IMG/VR virus record: IMGVR_UViG_3300021170_000005
Location: 1 to 42,933 of that record
Reading direction: 5' to 3' (one strand)
From: a virus
DNA: 42,933 nucleotides
Shown here: positions 18,218 to 42,933 of the stretch, piece after piece
Layout: every line of letters begins with the position of its first letter
Numbering within the stretch: the stretch's first letter is position 1
Notes under the pieces: model-generated
Database searches by the model: none
Told to the model about the DNA's origin: nothing
What the model saw: only the letters and a program-made list of their open reading frames with translations
Made by a program: the position numbers and the translations under genes

Positions 18218-18390
18218 ACCAATCCCCCAAAGTGTTTCATTACTGCTGGAAGTGAATTGTTGATGGAAGGAATCTTTGGGAGTTTCTTAGGATAGGGGCG
18301 GCCCAAAACTATATGGCGAGCAACTACATTGGCCAAGTAATTACTTTGAGTTGGTGCTTTTGGGGGTTTGATAATAGATGTACTTGCCAT
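18214..18390 (-). CDS. 58-aa mini-protein
   Basis: ATG 18390 to TGA 18214. It overlaps the upstream gene (TAATG) and the downstream gene (ATGA). A Pro/Lys-rich, probably unstructured sequence starts MASTSIIKPPKAPTQ. Function is unknown; gene status rests on the overlap chain and the lack of any other frame here. Confidence 0.65.
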   Translation of the reverse strand: MASTSIIKPPKAPTQSNYLANVVARHIVLGRPYPKKLPKIPSINNSLPAVMKHFGGLV

Positions 18391-18590
18391 TATCGTGAGT
18401 TTAGATGATACCTGGGAAGCGGGCCGCCAAGAGAACCAAAGTCTACAAAGAGACTAAGTACCCAAAGTACAACTAATATAATCACAACTACATTCAGAAT
18501 CTTCTTTATATTAGCATCCATTGGGATGTAAGTATTTACAAGCCATAAGAGGACACCAACTATGATGAGAGTAACTACAATTCCTATCAT
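18390..18590 (-). CDS. 66-aa membrane protein with two spans
   Basis: Two hydrophobic segments are visible: residues 3-22 (GIVVTLIIVGVLLWLVNTYI) and about 32-50 (VVVIILVVLWVLSLFV). The N-terminus is short and the tail includes GGPLPRYHLNSR. Two closely spaced spans in a 66-aa late protein are compatible with a class II holin, but similar small proteins of unknown role (Thivi_2564-type) also occur in phages. The holin role is therefore only a possibility. Confidence 0.75.
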   Translation of the reverse strand: MIGIVVTLIIVGVLLWLVNTYIPMDANIKKILNVVVIILVVLWVLSLFVDFGSLGGPLPRYHLNSR

Positions 18591-18775
18591 TTCTTTTTTC
18601 TCCTAGACTTCACAATATGCGCTGCCATATCTTTAGCGTGTTGTTGTTCCATCTGGATACCTTTAAAAGTGATCTTATTTCCTCTCATGGCCTCAATCTT
18701 ATTCATGACCATATAGGGGATTTTGCTGTTTTGCCCGTACTCTGATTTAAGTTTTTTCTCAAGAAATTCGGGCAT
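18587..18775 (-). CDS. 62-aa basic mini-protein
   Basis: MPEFLEKKLKSEYG followed by NKIEAMRGNKITFKG and a strongly basic tail SRRKKK. It recalls small lysine-rich phage proteins of the type MPxLEKKLKxEY. It probably binds nucleic acid. It overlaps the next gene by four bases. Confidence 0.72.
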   Translation of the reverse strand: MPEFLEKKLKSEYGQNSKIPYMVMNKIEAMRGNKITFKGIQMEQQHAKDMAAHIVKSRRKKK

Positions 18776-18781
18776 GAGAAT

Positions 18782-19689: not shown

Positions 19690-19696
19690 TATGTAT

Positions 19697-19798
19697 CTAC
19701 CAAAGTTGACTTATCTTATAAATCCAATAAAGATCCCATAAGAAAAATATGAATAAAAAAATTGAAGATTTTGGGTAATTTTTGGTAATTTCTCGCAT
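19697..19798 (-). CDS. 33-aa hydrophobic mini-protein
   Basis: ATG 19798 to TAG 19697. The sequence contains SSIFLFIFFLWDLYWIYKI, a single membrane span with aromatic girdle. It lies eight bases upstream of the LuxR-type gene. No Shine-Dalgarno sequence is visible. It could be a small membrane protein or a leader peptide. Confidence 0.45.
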   Translation of the reverse strand: MREITKNYPKSSIFLFIFFLWDLYWIYKISQLW

Positions 19799-19812
19799 AT
19801 ATCTACGTTTGT

Positions 19813-19860
19813 TAAGGCGCCCTTATAGGCCCACCGATCCCCGAAAGTAGGGAGGACCGG
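19813..19860 (-). other. Two RNA hairpins downstream of the 42-aa leader ORF
   Basis: In the minus-strand transcript CCGGTCC pairs with GGATCGG (19854-19860 with 19834-19840). One pair is G-U in this strand but A-C in the other, which argues that the minus RNA is the functional one. Next is TAAGG, loop GCG, CCTTA (19813-19825). No U-tract follows, so it is not a classical terminator. The pair lies 12 bases behind the stop of the 42-aa ORF and may form an attenuator or protect RNA. Confidence 0.6.
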
Positions 19861-19871
19861 TAGGGAGGGAA

Positions 19872-20000
19872 CTAAGAGAATAGTTCTTTCAAGGCATTGT
19901 CATAACCATCCAAAAGATCAGCATAGCGTGATGGCTGCATTGTTGTAAATAACAAGTCAAGCCACGTATTAGAACTATATAACCAATAACGATTAGTCAT
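19872..20000 (-). CDS. 42-aa leaderless mini-gene
   Basis: ATG 20000 to TAG 19872, encoding a protein that begins MTNRYWLYSSNTWLDLLFTT. The ATG lies five bases after the -10 of a strong promoter (20006-20034), so transcription would start at or beside the A of the ATG (leaderless mRNA). The protein is aromatic-rich with a hydrophobic centre. It may be a leader peptide for the LuxR-type gene downstream. Confidence 0.6.
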   Translation of the reverse strand: MTNRYWLYSSNTWLDLLFTTMQPSRYADLLDGYDNALKELFS

Positions 20001-20005
20001 AACTA

Positions 20006-20034
20006 AGTCTATCTCACTTCCGGCCGCGAGTCAA
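20006..20034 (-). promoter_or_regulatory. Sigma70-like promoter, leaderless, minus strand
   Basis: -35 TTGACT (20034-20029), 17-bp spacer containing CGGCCG, -10 TAGACT (20011-20006). Five bases later comes the ATG at 20000. It would drive the 42-aa ORF, the 33-aa ORF, the LuxR-type gene and probably the late operon. Its -35 starts four bases from a large inverted repeat (20038-20096). Confidence 0.75.
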
Positions 20035-20037
20035 GAC

Positions 20038-20096
20038 TTTTCTTATCTTACCACTCTCTGAGTATGAAGAAATAAGGAAAGTGGTAAGTAAGAAAA
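20038..20096. repeat. Large inverted repeat next to the late promoter
   Basis: The plus strand reads TTTTCTTATCTTACCAC (20038-20054), then 26 bases, then GTGGTAAGTAAGAAAA (20081-20096). Arms of 15 paired bases are interrupted only by a one- versus two-base internal loop. It fills the gap between the 146-aa gene and the promoter at 20006-20034. It may be a bidirectional hairpin, a terminator without U-tract, or a protein-binding site. Confidence 0.8.
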
Positions 20097-20098
20097 CT

Positions 20099-20539
20099 CT
20101 AGGCCGTCGCTTTCAACTTATCCACAATCGCGGGATTGGAGAGAATCTGAGCTTGTGCCTGCTCCTTCGCCTTCCGCTTATCCTCACGTGGCATATCTTT
20201 TGCATAGTCATACAAAAGCTTGGCGAGCGAAAGCACGTGAACCGAAAGTTGCTTGCTCGCATTCTCACTGATTGTAGTTCCAGTGAAAGGTACGAGATTA
20301 TCCTCGTCATCCTTCGCCATCCAGGGAATTGAAGAATCTTGCTTAGCCTGCTCTGCAGTGTAAGAACAAAGGCCATCATTGATAATCTTCAAAAATGCAG
20401 CTGAATCATTCCCAACACGTTCAAGCGCTTCTTTCGTATTGTCGACAGGGGTGAAAGTGACCTGCTTGTAGAGCGTAACATCACTCTTAGAGTCCAAGTC
20501 AAAAACGGACTGCGTAGGTTCGAGTACGATGGGTTCCAT
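20099..20539 (-). CDS. 146-aa protein of unknown function, separately transcribed
   Basis: The start is taken as ATG 20539 because AAAGGAA precedes it at a good distance; an upstream in-frame extension to 20698 reads through a promoter. The protein has KQVTFTPVDNTKEALERVGN, then AAFLKIINDGLCSY, and ends in a charged helix (REDKRKAKEQAQAQILSN). The end resembles a helical binding domain. It stands alone between a structured leader and an inverted repeat, with its own promoter (20670-20698). No family is recognised. Confidence 0.82.
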   Translation of the reverse strand: MEPIVLEPTQSVFDLDSKSDVTLYKQVTFTPVDNTKEALERVGNDSAAFLKIINDGLCSYTAEQAKQDSSIPWMAKDDEDNLVPFTGTTISENASKQLSVHVLSLAKLLYDYAKDMPREDKRKAKEQAQAQILSNPAIVDKLKATA

Positions 20540-20663
20540 ATTGAGTTCCTTTACAAGATTGATTAGCTCCCGTTTCACGCTTCGAAATCCTGCGAGTCGG
20601 CAGGAGCGAAACTTGTTTTGAGTCAAGAGCCTTCTCTCGGAAGTGAATCGTTTGGGTTGCCAT
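20540..20663 (-). promoter_or_regulatory. Structured 5' leader of the 146-aa gene
   Basis: This 124-base leader runs from the predicted start site to the ATG at 20539. It folds into a compound hairpin at 20572-20612: an inner stem CCTGC/GCAGG around GAGTCG, and an outer stem CGCT/AGCG and GTTTC/GAAAC with a CA bulge. A 54-codon ORF (ATG 20663 to 20499) also lies here and runs into the 146-aa gene. It is arginine-rich and may be chance. Confidence 0.55.
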
Positions 20664-20698
20664 GTAGAGAGTATGCCAGAAGGGAGAGAAGTTGTCAA
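20664..20698 (-). promoter_or_regulatory. Sigma70-like promoter for the 146-aa gene
   Basis: -35 TTGACA (20698-20693), 17-bp spacer, -10 CATACT (20675-20670). An ATG at 20663 follows six bases later. Either a leaderless mini-ORF starts there, or the RNA has a 124-base leader for the gene at 20099-20539. Confidence 0.68.
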
Positions 20699-20836
20699 TA
20701 CCTTAGATGAAAAAAAGTGAAAATAAAATGACCCTCCTGAGCGGCAAGAGGGAATGCATAGGAGTTCGATGGTGAAGCGCAGGGCGAAGCGGACCCGGTT
20801 TAGAGGGGCCTAGAACGGGCTAGGTGCAACGATCAG

Positions 20837-20875
20837 AAGGGGATAGGAGAATTGGACTCCTAGCAATTCAGCATG
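20837..20875. repeat. Inverted repeat, left arm
   Basis: Read on the minus strand this arm matches the plus strand at 21058-21096 at about 31 of 40 positions. There are two well-kept blocks: CTGAATTGCTAGGAG (against CTGAATGGCTAGGAG) and CTATCCCCTT (exact). It also holds a local hairpin TAGGAG/CTCCTA (20844-20862). See the right arm and the candidate origin between them. Confidence 0.8.
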
Positions 20876-21057
20876 GCTCCTCGACTTTCTGATATGGTAG
20901 ATTTATATATATACAAATATATAATAATAAAGGACTTAAGAGAGAGAAAATGAGAGAAGGAAAGAGGGATAGAGAGAGTACAGATAGGTAGGCTAATATC
21001 CCCATTTGCCTCAGTTAGATACAGCAGTCAGACGGGTCAAAAAACCACCCATACGGG
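20876..21057. other. AT-rich and purine-rich core, candidate replication origin
   Basis: No gene is seen here. At 20891-20930 the sequence is almost pure A/T (TATATATATACAAATATATA). From 20931 to about 20985 it is purine-dominated (GAGAGAGAAAATGAGAGAAG). The segment is framed by the arms of a long inverted repeat and by divergent promoters. An easily melted segment with flanking repeats is typical of origins, but this is inference only. Confidence 0.45.
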
Positions 21058-21096
21058 CATACTGAATGGCTAGGAGCCACTTCGAGCTATCCCCTT
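21058..21096. repeat. Inverted repeat, right arm
   Basis: Partner of 20837-20875. It contains its own small palindrome GGCT AGG AGCC (21068-21078). It is followed after 22 bp by the -35 of the early promoter. Confidence 0.8.
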
Positions 21097-21118
21097 GATT
21101 CTAAAGCGAAGATAGCTA

Positions 21119-21153
21119 TTGACACCCCCCTCCTACAGGGTGTACACTCAGTC
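21119..21153 (+). promoter_or_regulatory. Early promoter, leaderless, with internal operator-like repeat
   Basis: -35 TTGACA (21119-21124, full consensus), 18-bp spacer, -10 TACACT (21143-21148), then five bases to the ATG at 21154. The spacer holds the inverted repeat ACACCC N10 GGGTGT (21122-21143). The palindrome GTGTACAC (21140-21147) overlaps the -10. These are good places for a repressor to act. This promoter should drive the whole plus-strand operon. Confidence 0.78.
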
Positions 21154-21324
21154 ATGCCCACACATAGACCCCCTTCAGACACCACGCTCCGAGTACCACC
21201 GGAGCTCAAAAACGTAGTAAAACATATGAGTAAGATGCTAAGTATTAGTAAGGCAAAAGCCTTAGATATTTGTCTACAATCCCCGCATATTAGAGCGGCA
21301 TTGATCCTAAAACTAATGAAGTAA
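21154..21324 (+). CDS. Ribbon-helix-helix DNA-binding protein
   Basis: A 56-aa protein. TLRVPPELKNVVKHMSKMLS followed by ISKAKALDICL is the Arc/CopG pattern: a short strand (TLRV), PPEL turn, helix 1, then S-x-S/K-A helix 2. RHH proteins bind DNA as dimers, with the strand in the major groove, and often repress their own promoter. As the first gene behind a leaderless promoter with inverted repeats, autoregulation of the early operon is likely. There is no Shine-Dalgarno sequence, as expected for a leaderless message. Confidence 0.78.
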   Translation: MPTHRPPSDTTLRVPPELKNVVKHMSKMLSISKAKALDICLQSPHIRAALILKLMK

Positions 21325-21483: not shown

Positions 21484-21912
21484 ATGCCCCTACTCACACC
21501 ACACTGGGACACACCACGACCAAAAAACCCAAGGTCAAAGTCAACAAGTGAGGAAATTAAAGAAAGAAGAAAACTTGCCAATCGCAGAGCCTATAAGAAA
21601 CAAATGGATAAGGCTTTTGATCCTGCTAGAATGTCTCTTCTCGAACGTAGTTCACTTGATCGCTCGCGACTTGCCGAGCTTCACCGAAACAAGGATATCA
21701 TCATTGGGAAAGCTTGGGGTCCCATAGTTGCTAGAAGAATCGCACGTTGTATAGAAGCAATGAATAAGAATGTGGATGTATTGGTACTTACATCAAGTGT
21801 GAGCAAACCACCATTTACAGAGTACAATATAGAGTATTTCGATGTATATGTGAGGTATCATCGAACTACTTTCGACGGCCAGCGAGTGCTGGAAGTGGGA
21901 GAGATAAACTAA
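21484..21912 (+). CDS. 142-aa basic protein of unknown function
   Basis: Residues 15-50 are strongly basic (SKSTSEEIKERRKLANRRAY), which suggests nucleic-acid binding. The middle has IIIGKAWGPIVARRIARCIE and the end has NVDVLVLTSSV, a hydrophobic strand, then DVYVRYHRTTFDG. The gene overlaps the zinc-protein gene by one base (TAATG). No enzyme motif is recognised. Confidence 0.8.
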   Translation: MPLLTPHWDTPRPKNPRSKSTSEEIKERRKLANRRAYKKQMDKAFDPARMSLLERSSLDRSRLAELHRNKDIIIGKAWGPIVARRIARCIEAMNKNVDVLVLTSSVSKPPFTEYNIEYFDVYVRYHRTTFDGQRVLEVGEIN

Positions 21913-28361: not shown

Positions 28362-28579
28362 CAATAGGAACTCATAAAGAATACCCTTTAGAAATTGGTA
28401 AAGTCTATCGAGGGCTTAATAACCCTAATGGTGAATATGATGATGATATTCACTATAAAGTAATAAAAGAATCTACAAAAGAAGCATATGATCAAACTTG
28501 TATGGAATTAGGTGTTAAACCTGAATGGGATAATCCTTATTTTCCTAAATATATCTATTATGAGGTACAAACAGATTGA
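28358..28579 (+). CDS. 73-aa acidic protein
   Basis: ATGA overlap with its upstream neighbour. Contains IGKVYRGLNNPNGEYDDDIH, then YKVIKESTKEAYDQTC and YFPKYIYYEVQ. It resembles small beta-type phage proteins of unknown role. It overlaps the polymerase start by four bases. Confidence 0.75.
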   Translation: MTIGTHKEYPLEIGKVYRGLNNPNGEYDDDIHYKVIKESTKEAYDQTCMELGVKPEWDNPYFPKYIYYEVQTD

Positions 28580-30981
28580 TCCGTGGTCGTGGTTATGCTT
28601 CTGCCCGCATTATGCTCATTGCTGACGGCGGTGCCGAAAGTGATGTTTCGACAGAACTTGCTATTTCAGGTGATCCAGAAATCAAACTTCGTAAACTGGC
28701 TTACAGCCAAGGTTTAGACTTTGAGAAATTTTGGCTCACCTGTCTTATTAAAGAAAAGATAACTAATAAGTCTGGTAAAGATGCAACTAAAAGGAATAGA
28801 GAATTACTTACAGATGAATACAAAAATATCCTTACAAATGAAATTCAGCAACTCGGAAGCTCGATTTTGGTCCCACTTGGTGAATTGGCCTTTCAATTCT
28901 GTACTGGATTATCGGGAATACGCAAGTTTCGTGGATCAATTTTACCATATAATAGCGTACCAATACGAAGAGTAATCCCTATTCTCGGCCCCCATCCATA
29001 CCTATATGAAGAACCTAAGCTCGAATTTATCTCAAGACTTGATTTCTCAAAAGTCAAACGTAATGAATTACTTGAAGGCCCAATACCTGAAATTGGCCAG
29101 TGTTGGGTGGCCCAAACGCCCGGACAAGTCAAAGGATATTTCAGAAGACAATTGGAGAAAAATCCTAATTTTGTGGTCTTTGATATCGAAACTTTCGCTA
29201 ATATTCCTACTTGTATATCTTTTTGTTTCGACGGCCTTGAATCTTGTTGTGTACCCATTCTCGACTATCACATTAATGAAGATGATCGGGTTTTGATGCT
29301 CCTGGTCGTGGCCGAGCTACTCCGAAGTGACATTCCGAAAGTCAACCAGAATGTGAAATTCGATTGGCGGAAACTTGAGAAGTGGGGACTGACAGTAAAG
29401 AATGTAGTTGGTGACACAATGATAGCAGCCAATTGTCTTTATTGTGAGTTTCCTAAAAACTTAGGATTCTTGACAAGTATCTACACAGACATGCCTTATT
29501 TTAAGGATGAGGGGAAAGATTATGATCCAAGCTTCTATGATCGGCAAAAATTATATATCTATAATGCTAAAGATAGCTTGGCTACACATCAAATTTATTC
29601 ACAACAACTGGAAGAAGTTAAAGAAACTAACACCGCCAACGTGTATAGAATGCAGATGGACATTCTACCCATCTACAAACAAATGGAAGATAACGGCATA
29701 CGAGTCGATAATCAACAACGGCGTAATCTTATCGGTAAATATGAGTCACTTTATGAAACCTACAAATACAAGCTCCAGCTCCTTGTCGGCCGAGAAATAA
29801 ATCCTCTTAGCTCTCTAGTTTGTCAGAGGTTAGTTTATGAAGAATTGGGCTATAAAGCTATACGTGGTACAAAACACACTTCTACTGGAAAACCTTCAGC
29901 AGATGAAGAATCACTTGAATTGCTTCTCTGGATGGGTAATTCACCATCATATAATTGCAGGGATATTCTCCGTACCATTATTGATTGTCGTAAGTTGCAT
30001 AAAGTTATTGAACTTCTTGTACCACCTCTTTATCCAGATGGGAAATTCCGTTGTGAATTCAACCTGGCGGGGACAGTAAATGGTCGTTCTTCGGCCGGTG
30101 AAACTACTGATTACATACTTTATCTACAGGATAATGGTGTAGTCAAGATGGGTAATCTTGGGCATTCTTTTCAAACAATAGGAAAGCATGGATTTGCGGT
30201 GGATGGAGAAACTTATGGAAAAGATATACGTAGTATGTTCGTGCCTTCTCCTGGTTATATATTTGTTGAAAATGATCTTAGCCAAGCAGAAGCTAGAGTG
30301 GATGCGGTATTATCCTCAGATTTTGACATATTACAACAATTTGATGGACCTATTGGTATACATAAACTTACTGGTAGCTGGGTATACGATTGTCCACCAT
30401 TGGAAATAAAAAAATCAATTCTTGTCAATGGTGAAGATCGCTACTATGTCTCGAAAACAGTCCGTCATGCCGGTGAACGAAATATGAAAGAAGATCGTTT
30501 AATGATGATGATTCACCAGCCAGTAATGGATTGTGCTAAGATTCTTAAGAAATTCCATGATAACCAACCAAACATTCGTGGTGTGTTCCATAAAGGAATA
30601 AGAGAACATATCATGAAAGAGAGAGTTTTGGTTGCTCCTAACGGCCGGCGACGTGACTTTTTTGGCCGTATTGATGAACATACGATTAATGAGGCAATCT
30701 CATTTCTACCCCAAGCCATTGTTACTGATTACCTTAAGCAGAGTCTAGTCAAAACATTCTCTGAGTGCCCTTATGCCCGCCCACTAATTGAGGCACATGA
30801 TGGATTTTTAGCAGAAGTACCAGAAGGGAAAGAAGAAGAATATGCTACAGTATTTAAAAAGAATGTGGAAGTACGAATTGATTTTCGGACTTGTAGTCTT
30901 AGTAGGGACTTTGATCTTGTTATACCTTGCGAGAGTACTATAGGAGAAAATTGGAAAGATATGGAAGAGATAAAAATATGA
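28576..30981 (+). CDS. Family A DNA polymerase fused to a UDG-like domain
   Basis: An 801-aa protein starting at TTG 28576 (TTGA overlap). Residues 1-150 follow the layout of family 4 uracil-DNA glycosylases (VPLGELAFQFCTG, GIRKFRGS, GPHP), but the N-terminal GEAPG motif is replaced by ADGGAES, so activity is doubtful. The 3'-5' exonuclease has D203/E205, D263 and Y329...D333. The polymerase has GTVNGRSS (499-506), motif A DLSQAEAR (567-574) and motif C HDG (741-743). Motif B is KTVRHAGERNM (627-637), lacking the usual Tyr. It probably replicates the genome; the next gene is translationally coupled. Confidence 0.9.
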   Translation: MIRGRGYASARIMLIADGGAESDVSTELAISGDPEIKLRKLAYSQGLDFEKFWLTCLIKEKITNKSGKDATKRNRELLTDEYKNILTNEIQQLGSSILVPLGELAFQFCTGLSGIRKFRGSILPYNSVPIRRVIPILGPHPYLYEEPKLEFISRLDFSKVKRNELLEGPIPEIGQCWVAQTPGQVKGYFRRQLEKNPNFVVFDIETFANIPTCISFCFDGLESCCVPILDYHINEDDRVLMLLVVAELLRSDIPKVNQNVKFDWRKLEKWGLTVKNVVGDTMIAANCLYCEFPKNLGFLTSIYTDMPYFKDEGKDYDPSFYDRQKLYIYNAKDSLATHQIYSQQLEEVKETNTANVYRMQMDILPIYKQMEDNGIRVDNQQRRNLIGKYESLYETYKYKLQLLVGREINPLSSLVCQRLVYEELGYKAIRGTKHTSTGKPSADEESLELLLWMGNSPSYNCRDILRTIIDCRKLHKVIELLVPPLYPDGKFRCEFNLAGTVNGRSSAGETTDYILYLQDNGVVKMGNLGHSFQTIGKHGFAVDGETYGKDIRSMFVPSPGYIFVENDLSQAEARVDAVLSSDFDILQQFDGPIGIHKLTGSWVYDCPPLEIKKSILVNGEDRYYVSKTVRHAGERNMKEDRLMMMIHQPVMDCAKILKKFHDNQPNIRGVFHKGIREHIMKERVLVAPNGRRRDFFGRIDEHTINEAISFLPQAIVTDYLKQSLVKTFSECPYARPLIEAHDGFLAEVPEGKEEEYATVFKKNVEVRIDFRTCSLSRDFDLVIPCESTIGENWKDMEEIKI

Positions 30982-42100: not shown

Positions 42101-42933
42101 TGTTATCTGATCTATAACTGCCCAACTTTGCTGAATCCCAGTTAGTGTAAATTGTACAGCAGTTACATGGGTCCAATCAAGAAAGTGATTAGGTGCTTGA
42201 AATGGTCCAGGGTGACTTGAGCTAGTTCCTTGGCGTGACCAATTTTGTCTTTGATCTCCTATGATAGATTGTTGTGTAAGTCCAATGTTGAATTGCCCAT
42301 CATTGATAAGAAAATCTTCCCAATAGTAGTTGAAAGGTTGGGTTGGATGATTATCAAGAATAAATTGGACTCGTATATCTGTAAACTGGCTAGAGTCATT
42401 TAATTGAGCTAGAAAATTTATTATATCAGTTAAGTAGTTATCAGTTACTCCACTTCCAAAAGCTGTAGTATCAAGAGGAGAAGCATATGTGTAAGTTACA
42501 GTTGCTCGTAAAGTTACAGGATCAAGAGTAAAAGAAGCCGCACTACTTCCGGGGGATGTAAAAGGAATAGGATTCGGTCCGGCCCCAGTGTTAGCAGCAA
42601 TCCCCGGTACACCTTCTGAGATACTCCAAGTTCCACCAGTACTTAGATTAATGATAGCTGGTTGTTGGATTACTATTGTTGGCCCAGTTAATTGATCTTT
42701 TAATCCGAGATTTCTGAAAGTTCCAGACCCATCATCTTTAACAGCTTGTGAACCACAAACCACCAATACCGCTCCAAGCGCCGATCCAAATGCTGTAATA
42801 AACCCACCATCCGATAAAACTGTAACAGTGTCATTAAAGTTACCACTCATCGAGCGAACTACGAGTCGCCCAGCTTCATTAAGAGCAGCATAAACAGGAT
42901 TATTGCCGCCAAGAACAGTAGAGTAAAGACTAT
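39161..42933 (-). CDS. Nozzle-like giant structural protein, main part (N-terminus at 298-1)
   Basis: With the 298-base start at the left end this gene encodes 1314 aa. Residues from about 85 to 750 are beta-rich. The part around WLKKIAPSQLVLATSREHYL and GIRATNGGTSTLISQGIRLL resembles the beta-propeller of podovirus tail nozzle proteins (T7 gp12/P22 gp10 type). Then come four tandem repeats of about 85 aa, with conserved RKRxxxYKFQI, FTPIxDG, GxDIGGTL, FEFYGV and VExLP. It may form the tail tip or nozzle; the repeats look like stacked beta domains. The next gene overlaps by ATGA. Confidence 0.85.
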   Translation of the reverse strand, partial: SLYSTVLGGNNPVYAALNEAGRLVVRSMSGNFNDTVTVLSDGGFITAFGSALGAVLVVCGSQAVKDDGSGTFRNLGLKDQLTGPTIVIQQPAIINLSTGGTWSISEGVPGIAANTGAGPNPIPFTSPGSSAASFTLDPVTLRATVTYTYASPLDTTAFGSGVTDNYLTDIINFLAQLNDSSQFTDIRVQFILDNHPTQPFNYYWEDFLINDGQFNIGLTQQSIIGDQRQNWSRQGTSSSHPGPFQAPNHFLDWTHVTAVQFTLTGIQQSWAVIDQITVTGGPQGNLLGVYQYATVAVYDNGIYQAKSALSPFTNNILVQNSFVMATLICTDTEANEVWLFRRSMISSTDPIYQTFISQNKVPANLNQWYLVAQGAPGAIVEDNTSDIVALEQDIVANEFLQSIQDLIVSDPIVCMEGMYYTRMLYVSESTIYLSDPLNPDAIDQRYSVRAFAGATEKNLWLKKIAPSQLVLATSREHYLITGTLEALPDGTLDVVITPIGEKYPSLSADVCNGNGVLFYPAADGIRATNGGTSTLISQGIRLLWQGSTRFGVPGVAIQTQDSINYSLAAAKTKLYCVIPCTDGVHRIVCYDTVLQTWRLIDTRDDPLTICATPTDRLIVGYSQPSVGVYEIEKAGATSQTPFVLQTVFDCNGQPRNRKDTFTLKVISDCGGQQVDIYLSKDSDDPINSYTLIGNMSNNGLATNYFPLNNITLGFRYSIKIVDHALVSKFKLYETTIEYEPRPEQVDYLRVLPTNLGSIARKRFTAYAVVIDTLGNNISFTPYVDNAPQSSYAFSTSTKLTYIFYFTSETLGTDIGGIFSGGVFEFYTVNIEECVSEKLPTPVEFLVIPANNYGTPNRKRHTSYKFQILTRGANVTFTPILDGVSYPSAVFNTPIKRTVEYFFPIGQDVIGIDIGGTLAAATPFEFYGVITPQQVEQLPDRLEYFVIPANDYGVPNRKRHSSYKFQINTNGSPISFTPIVDGNLGTPAIFTTPSKQTVEYFFTVDTIGIDIGGTLASLPGNPFEFYGVVVPQTVEKLPDRLEFYKTPNTNFGVAARKRIRTIPIVIDTYGNPVTFTPIVDGVLQSNTTTLQIFGKGTLYHYFSNDVFGTDYGGTFQSQVQGQPFEFYEYGQPENVEVLPVPKKYDQLGPIRLDKIGKLFGFRLRLIMNGTTTSLPFEILGDLSPSDPTYGTPILYSGTIPVFPGLDNVYEVFLPKSVNTDIIRLVLGPTTDSFHRYDTHVKVQTSGMESDSQWVPIR
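42808..42933. repeat. Terminal direct repeat, right copy
   Basis: Exact copy of bases 1-126. Joining the ends here restores an unbroken 1314-aa gene, which supports a circular or circularly permuted molecule of 42807 bp. Confidence 0.95.

Follow-up and report, generated by a model that had tools for sequence, protein, structure and literature searches.

An inverted repeat around an AT-rich core at the divergence point of a viral genome: a candidate replication origin and control region

Introduction

The origin of phage lambda contains inverted iterons that open a neighbouring A+T-rich region of approximately 40 bp (PMC5043065). In Ceduovirus (Lactococcus phages c2, bIL67 and 923), the origin is a non-coding gap from which the early and late modules diverge; its centre differs between types, and an untranslated transcript has been proposed to act in initiation (PMC7150918).

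Outside a few models, phage origins are mostly unmapped. The gap described here offers a candidate that is precisely placed and open to test, in a lineage remote from isolated phages. It lies in the window, the stretch of DNA that was analysed, which is the whole virus record IMGVR_UViG_3300021170_000005 of IMG/VR (42,933 bases).

Results

A direct terminal repeat of 126 bp (1-126 and 42808-42933) indicated that the genome is probably complete and circularly assembled, and the phage is apparently lytic-type and tailed. Read on the circle, the genes between 21154 and 33248 ran rightward and all others leftward, with one divergence point (20664-21153) and one convergence point (33248/33249). This map agrees with the original prediction that the region is the organising element of the genome. 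The divergence point is a gene-free gap of 490 nt between the two gene blocks, containing no ORF longer than 45 aa. The right block encodes a SNF2-type helicase, a PD-(D/E)XK nuclease, a Sak4-like annealing protein, a family A DNA polymerase (PolA) and a primase-like protein, and these replication genes begin at the right edge of the gap. Terminase, portal and major head protein are encoded in the left block. Isolated phages were distant, the best helicase matches being approximately 28% identical and the best terminase matches approximately 24%, and no close phage DNA match to 18.8-23.8 kb was found. Two further gaps in the leftward block, of 564 nt (18218-18781) and 409 nt (19690-20098), lacked ORFs of at least 70 aa and may hold small genes. 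The N-terminus of the PolA-family protein (28576-30981) weakly matched uracil-DNA glycosylase, below the cutoff.

The first leftward gene (20099-20663, minus strand, ATG at 20663) encodes a conserved protein with no function assigned, 73-74% identical to its relatives over 148 aa. The product starts MATQTIHF, and relative to contig L002 (a close relative, see below) the frame is broken by one base after codon 30. The stretch 20540-20663 is thus out of frame with the conserved body, whereas the corresponding L002 stretch is in frame; the break is either real or a sequencing error of one base. On the other side, the replication operon starts with a 56-aa ORF (21154-21324, plus strand) directly behind the rightward promoter, which by eye is possibly ribbon-helix-helix-like. 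In contig L003 the rightward promoter is followed at once by an ORF starting MPLLTP, whose window counterpart sits at 21484.

Divergent promoters had been predicted at 20664-20698 and 21119-21153. Both are present and sigma-70-like by sequence, although neither is unusually strong by consensus. The leftward promoter (TTGACA-17-CATACT, 20670-20698, minus strand) has a TG before the -10 and recurs at the same site in L003; the rightward promoter is TTGACA-18-TACACT (21119-21148, plus strand). Each -10 lies only 5-6 nt from an ATG (6 nt on the left, 5 nt on the right), so both divergent mRNAs may be leaderless, the leftward one probably. Genome-wide, 22 promoter-like sites scored at least 10/12 against the consensus; the two in the gap are singled out by position, conservation and this ATG distance. 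Upstream of the leftward -35, alignment of the relatives marked an A/T-rich stretch (20699-20735) that may act like an UP element.

Three further blocks were distinguished in the gap. The sequence CGGTTTAGAGGGGCCTAGAACGGGCTAGGTGCAACGATC (20796-20834), immediately outside the left arm of the inverted repeat, was near identical in L002 and L003 and lost in contig L004. Half of a wider motif, CTTAAGTCCTTTA (20928-20940, minus strand), lies at the edge of the AT core and was kept in L002 and L003. The site AGCTATC..CCTTGATTCTAAAGCGAA..GATAGCT (21086-21117) has the core TTGATTCTAAAG at 21095-21106 and self-complementary outer arms. It is the most conserved block of the gap; 21098-21124, which touches the rightward -35, was kept in L002, L003 and L004. 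The gap of the window contained no DnaA box and, like the gaps of L002 and L003, no perfect IHF consensus site (WATCAANNNNTTR).

The arms of the inverted repeat (20837-20875 and 21058-21096) are complementary at 29 of 39 positions. They contain two blocks, exactly as originally described: one of 10 bases without mismatch (AAGGGGATAG/CTATCCCCTT) and one of 15 bases in which a single position differs (CTCCTAGCAATTCAG/CTGAATGGCTAGGAG); the outer block of the right arm overlaps the TTGATTCTAAAG site. The repeat scored 19, against a mean of 9.1 and a maximum of 14 in dinucleotide shuffles of the 420-nt interval (0/300 as good), and when left and right segments alone were compared none of 2000 shuffles reached its score. 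Among inverted repeats with arms within 400 bp, one in the genome outscored it (1016-1061/1073-1118, score 20). That repeat and another strong one (17993-18015/18080-18102, score 17) both overlap called ORFs. Transposon or MITE ends were ruled out for the repeat in the gap, since in relatives the element occupies the equivalent place and has diverged in sequence. With a 182-nt loop between the arms, a cruciform in duplex DNA would be unlikely.

An A/T core and a polypurine tract, free of genes, had been described between the arms, and both were borne out. No other 40-mer of the genome is as AT-rich as the core (20892-20931, 90% AT), which by composition would qualify as an A/T-rich unwinding segment. 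The purine-rich tract (20929-20988, 87% purine) is among the 12 most purine-rich 60-mers of the genome and was partly kept in relatives. The 6-mer TAGGAG occurs five times in the gap; comparable clusters were not unusual genome-wide.

Three IMG/VR contigs spanning the gap, L002, L003 and L004 (helicase 95, 83 and 81% identical), gave four close sequences in all, the window included. Further searches, whether with two DNA patterns or with the helicase, ORF 21912 or the first leftward gene, returned the same close contigs again. All three contigs retain the promoters and parts of the flanks. In the alignment, both -35 regions and the ends of the gap were conserved, together with islands between them. 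The AT core with TATATATA and AAAGGACTTA was kept in L002 and L003, and in L004 the AT-rich stretch was slightly displaced.

The arms themselves do not align across these relatives. Each contig nevertheless has an inverted repeat of its own round the core: 4236-4260/4429-4453 in L003 and a perfect 15-bp repeat, 1281-1295/1455-1469, in L004 (shuffles as good, 1/2000 for each), and a marginal one, 4109-4136/4314-4341, in L002 (63/2000, P approximately 0.03). Left and right segments paired across species scored at most 12, compared with 19, 15 and 15 for the own pairs of the window and two relatives; the own pair of L002 scored 10 and was not the best pairing for that contig. A search of relatives for the two blocks, suggested with the original prediction, thus found them not conserved as sequence, while the ability to pair was kept; the refuting condition given there, absence of the blocks from relatives, has to be recast accordingly. 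In two relatives, then, pairing persists under sequence turnover, L002 being marginal. Since the sequences of the arms do not align, the arms went unregistered when RNAalifold was applied to MAFFT alignments.

Among wider relatives, L006 and L018 (helicase 53 and 35% identical) have a common motif, TAAGTCCTTTAGAATCAAYGRCTTA, in their divergent gaps. Of the three copies in L018, two stand in inverted orientation on the two sides of an AT-rich stretch, and L017 has repeated near-palindromes. The divergent gap of L016 (helicase 48%) was without a strong inverted repeat. An IMG/VR scan with the TAAGTCCTTTAGAATCAAYGRCTTA motif returned eight contigs. One of these, L023, was missed by protein search and found by the DNA motif alone; it encodes a homologous helicase, nuclease, Sak4 and PolA. 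At the same place as in the window, its gap contains the motif together with an AT-rich stretch and an inverted repeat of 82 nt built from repeated TTGACACACG-type units (0/300 shuffles). This inverted iteron array (2018-2099/2354-2435, numbered along the reverse-complemented locus) lies round the AT-rich stretch and is a clearer origin candidate than the gap of the window itself. Clear arrays of repeated sites, as expected for an initiator, were confined to L023, L018 and L017; the window gap has one long inverted repeat and a half-motif.

IHF-like motifs (TAAGTCCTTTAGAATCAACGACTTA and variants) also occur, paired in inverted orientation or in arrays and mostly around AT-rich DNA, in more distant relatives and, near primase genes, in unrelated phages. 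The inverted pairs of Henu15 (31-nt arms, 90%, 209 nt apart) and VCLv11 (31 nt, 77%) lie round A/T-rich DNA, and that of WTB has 18-nt arms (89%). The motif stands in non-coding DNA directly after primase genes in WTB and A1432, at the end of the gene that follows a primase/helicase gene in DLP_6, and approximately 1.4 kb from the primase in KL1. In Stenotrophomonas phage DLP_6 (KU682439.2) the motif family ..AAAATCAACGACTTA occurs at about 21 places, in part as tandem 25-bp repeats just past the primase/helicase gene region. A reading of the motif as a primase-loading (ssi-like) hairpin found no support beyond nearness to primase genes. The right half of the motif fits the IHF consensus, with perfect sites in L004, L006, L018, L031, L033 and L036; a single host protein, and not descent, may therefore account for part of the likeness between unrelated phages. 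In the genome collection of bacterial chromosomes the full motif had no exact match, and a shorter conserved block had scattered 16-base matches only, taken as chance. A text search of the literature gave a single match, an unrelated PCR primer.

Discussion

The gap at 20664-21153 is best explained as a combined replication origin and divergent transcription control region, a reading that we consider about evenly balanced between right and wrong. The arms and the adjoining motif sites would be inverted binding sites for an initiator or bending protein of phage or host. With protein bound on both sides of the AT-rich core, the DNA would be looped or bent and the core would open more readily, and helicase and primase would load there. 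The outward promoters would serve the replication operon on the right and the structural operon on the left.

The significance of the inverted repeat, the unique AT-rich core, the adjoining replication genes and the positional repeats in L003, L004 and, weakly, L002 argue for an origin, as do the inverted motif copies of L018, the iteron array of L023, the inverted pairs of Henu15, VCLv11 and WTB and the motif sites close behind primase genes in WTB, A1432 and DLP_6. Against it, the arms lack sequence conservation, whereas a conserved protein would usually have conserved sites; the skew minima, the lack of a perfect IHF site or DnaA box, the L016 gap and the small number of close sequences (four) count the same way. 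No initiator gene was identified in this phage. A strand-skew reversal at approximately 21 kb, a supportive but not strictly defining mark of phage origins, was not found: the GC-skew plot, originally proposed as a check for a replication peak, reached its cumulative minimum at 15.1 kb and purine skew at 19.6 kb, both confounded by gene direction. The original prediction of a replication origin or shared regulator platform is therefore partly supported: by the sole divergence point, the core, the repeat kept by position and pairing and the inverted sites of relatives, but not by GC skew.

The arms may also, with the balance against it, serve functional single-strand pairing, in RNA or in DNA opened at the origin, with their sequence free to change. 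The gap would then hold an undescribed structured element at the divergence point, built on the recurring motif TAAGTC..TTTAGAATCAA..GACTTA, which lies near primase genes in unrelated phages. If pairing and not sequence is selected, the gap would join the Ceduovirus origins as a second case in which sequence turns over fast and structure is conserved. Those origins are said, in work by Rakonjac from 2003, to have conserved flanks and a partly conserved RNA structure.

It is rather doubtful that the gap is a transcriptional switch only, with inverted operators at which a phage repressor or activator loops the DNA between the promoters and times early versus late expression while replication starts elsewhere. 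The conserved divergent promoters, the most conserved block abutting the rightward -35, the possible ribbon-helix-helix ORF at 21154 and a GC skew that does not mark an origin here would all fit such a switch. The AT-rich core and the inverted iteron arrays of relatives exceed what it needs, however, and L003 is without the 21154 ORF at that position.

A structured non-coding RNA of approximately 260-370 nt running through the gap, with the inverted repeat as its long closing stem, is unlikely; such an RNA might prime replication, a role that has been proposed for the PE1-T transcript of c2, or serve as a regulator. Pairing kept while sequence changes would be expected of such an RNA. A promoter-like site (GTGTCA-16-TAGAAT, 21125-21098) in the most conserved block, also present in L003, offers a candidate minus-strand start near 21091, and with a terminator-like hairpin (20752-20732) it would frame an RNA of approximately 360 nt. 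Fold z-scores against shuffles were about -6.4 for the window region on both strands, -4.5 to -4.8 for L003 and -3.2 to -3.7 for L004, values that mostly restate the inverted repeat; that of L002 was only -1.3 to -1.9. No covariance model of Rfam 15 matched, the two strands folded equally well, and G-U versus A-C mismatches in the arms, read by eye, favoured neither strand. In L023, moreover, the arms are DNA iterons with the rightward promoter between them and so cannot pair in the transcript from that promoter, and the terminator-like site was not found in L003. DNA sites are therefore favoured, with an RNA as a live rival.

Very improbable is the reading of the inverted repeat as a replication by-product, in which template switching at quasi-palindromes homogenises the arms and complementarity persists without selection for function: compensatory-looking turnover in three lineages would be accounted for, but several lineages have the repeat in one and the same position around the same core, with shared flanking blocks, which suggests constraint, and arms 160-180 nt apart are far for typical quasi-palindrome correction.

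With the preferred reading of a combined origin and control region, the locus can be set beside known systems, and its motif can be used to find origin candidates in other phages. As in lambda, inverted repeats stand next to an AT-rich segment of approximately 40 bp with a phage replication module alongside; here the arms flank the core, are 182 nt apart and lie outside genes, and an O homologue was not identified. The locus shares with Ceduovirus a non-coding gap from which early and late modules diverge. In c2, two early promoters, PE1 and PE2, flank the origin centre, whereas here the promoters diverge and a transcript through the gap would be hypothetical; the likeness is one of kind, and a sequence relation is not expected. 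Relatives resemble the iteron/IHF plasmid origins of pSC101 and R6K in having IHF-consensus sites and AT-rich DNA, while the window gap is without a perfect IHF site or DnaA box and no Rep protein was found. Morganella phage Henu15, Flyfo podovirus Tbat2_2, Variovorax phage VCLv11, Burkholderia phages KL1 and WTB, and Stenotrophomonas phages A1432 and DLP_6 are unrelated in genome, and the regions concerned are not annotated as origins in the records consulted. They nevertheless have in common with this locus a TTTAGAATCAA-type core, present as inverted pairs in non-coding DNA in Henu15, VCLv11 and WTB and often near primase genes, of which the window site is a degenerate version.
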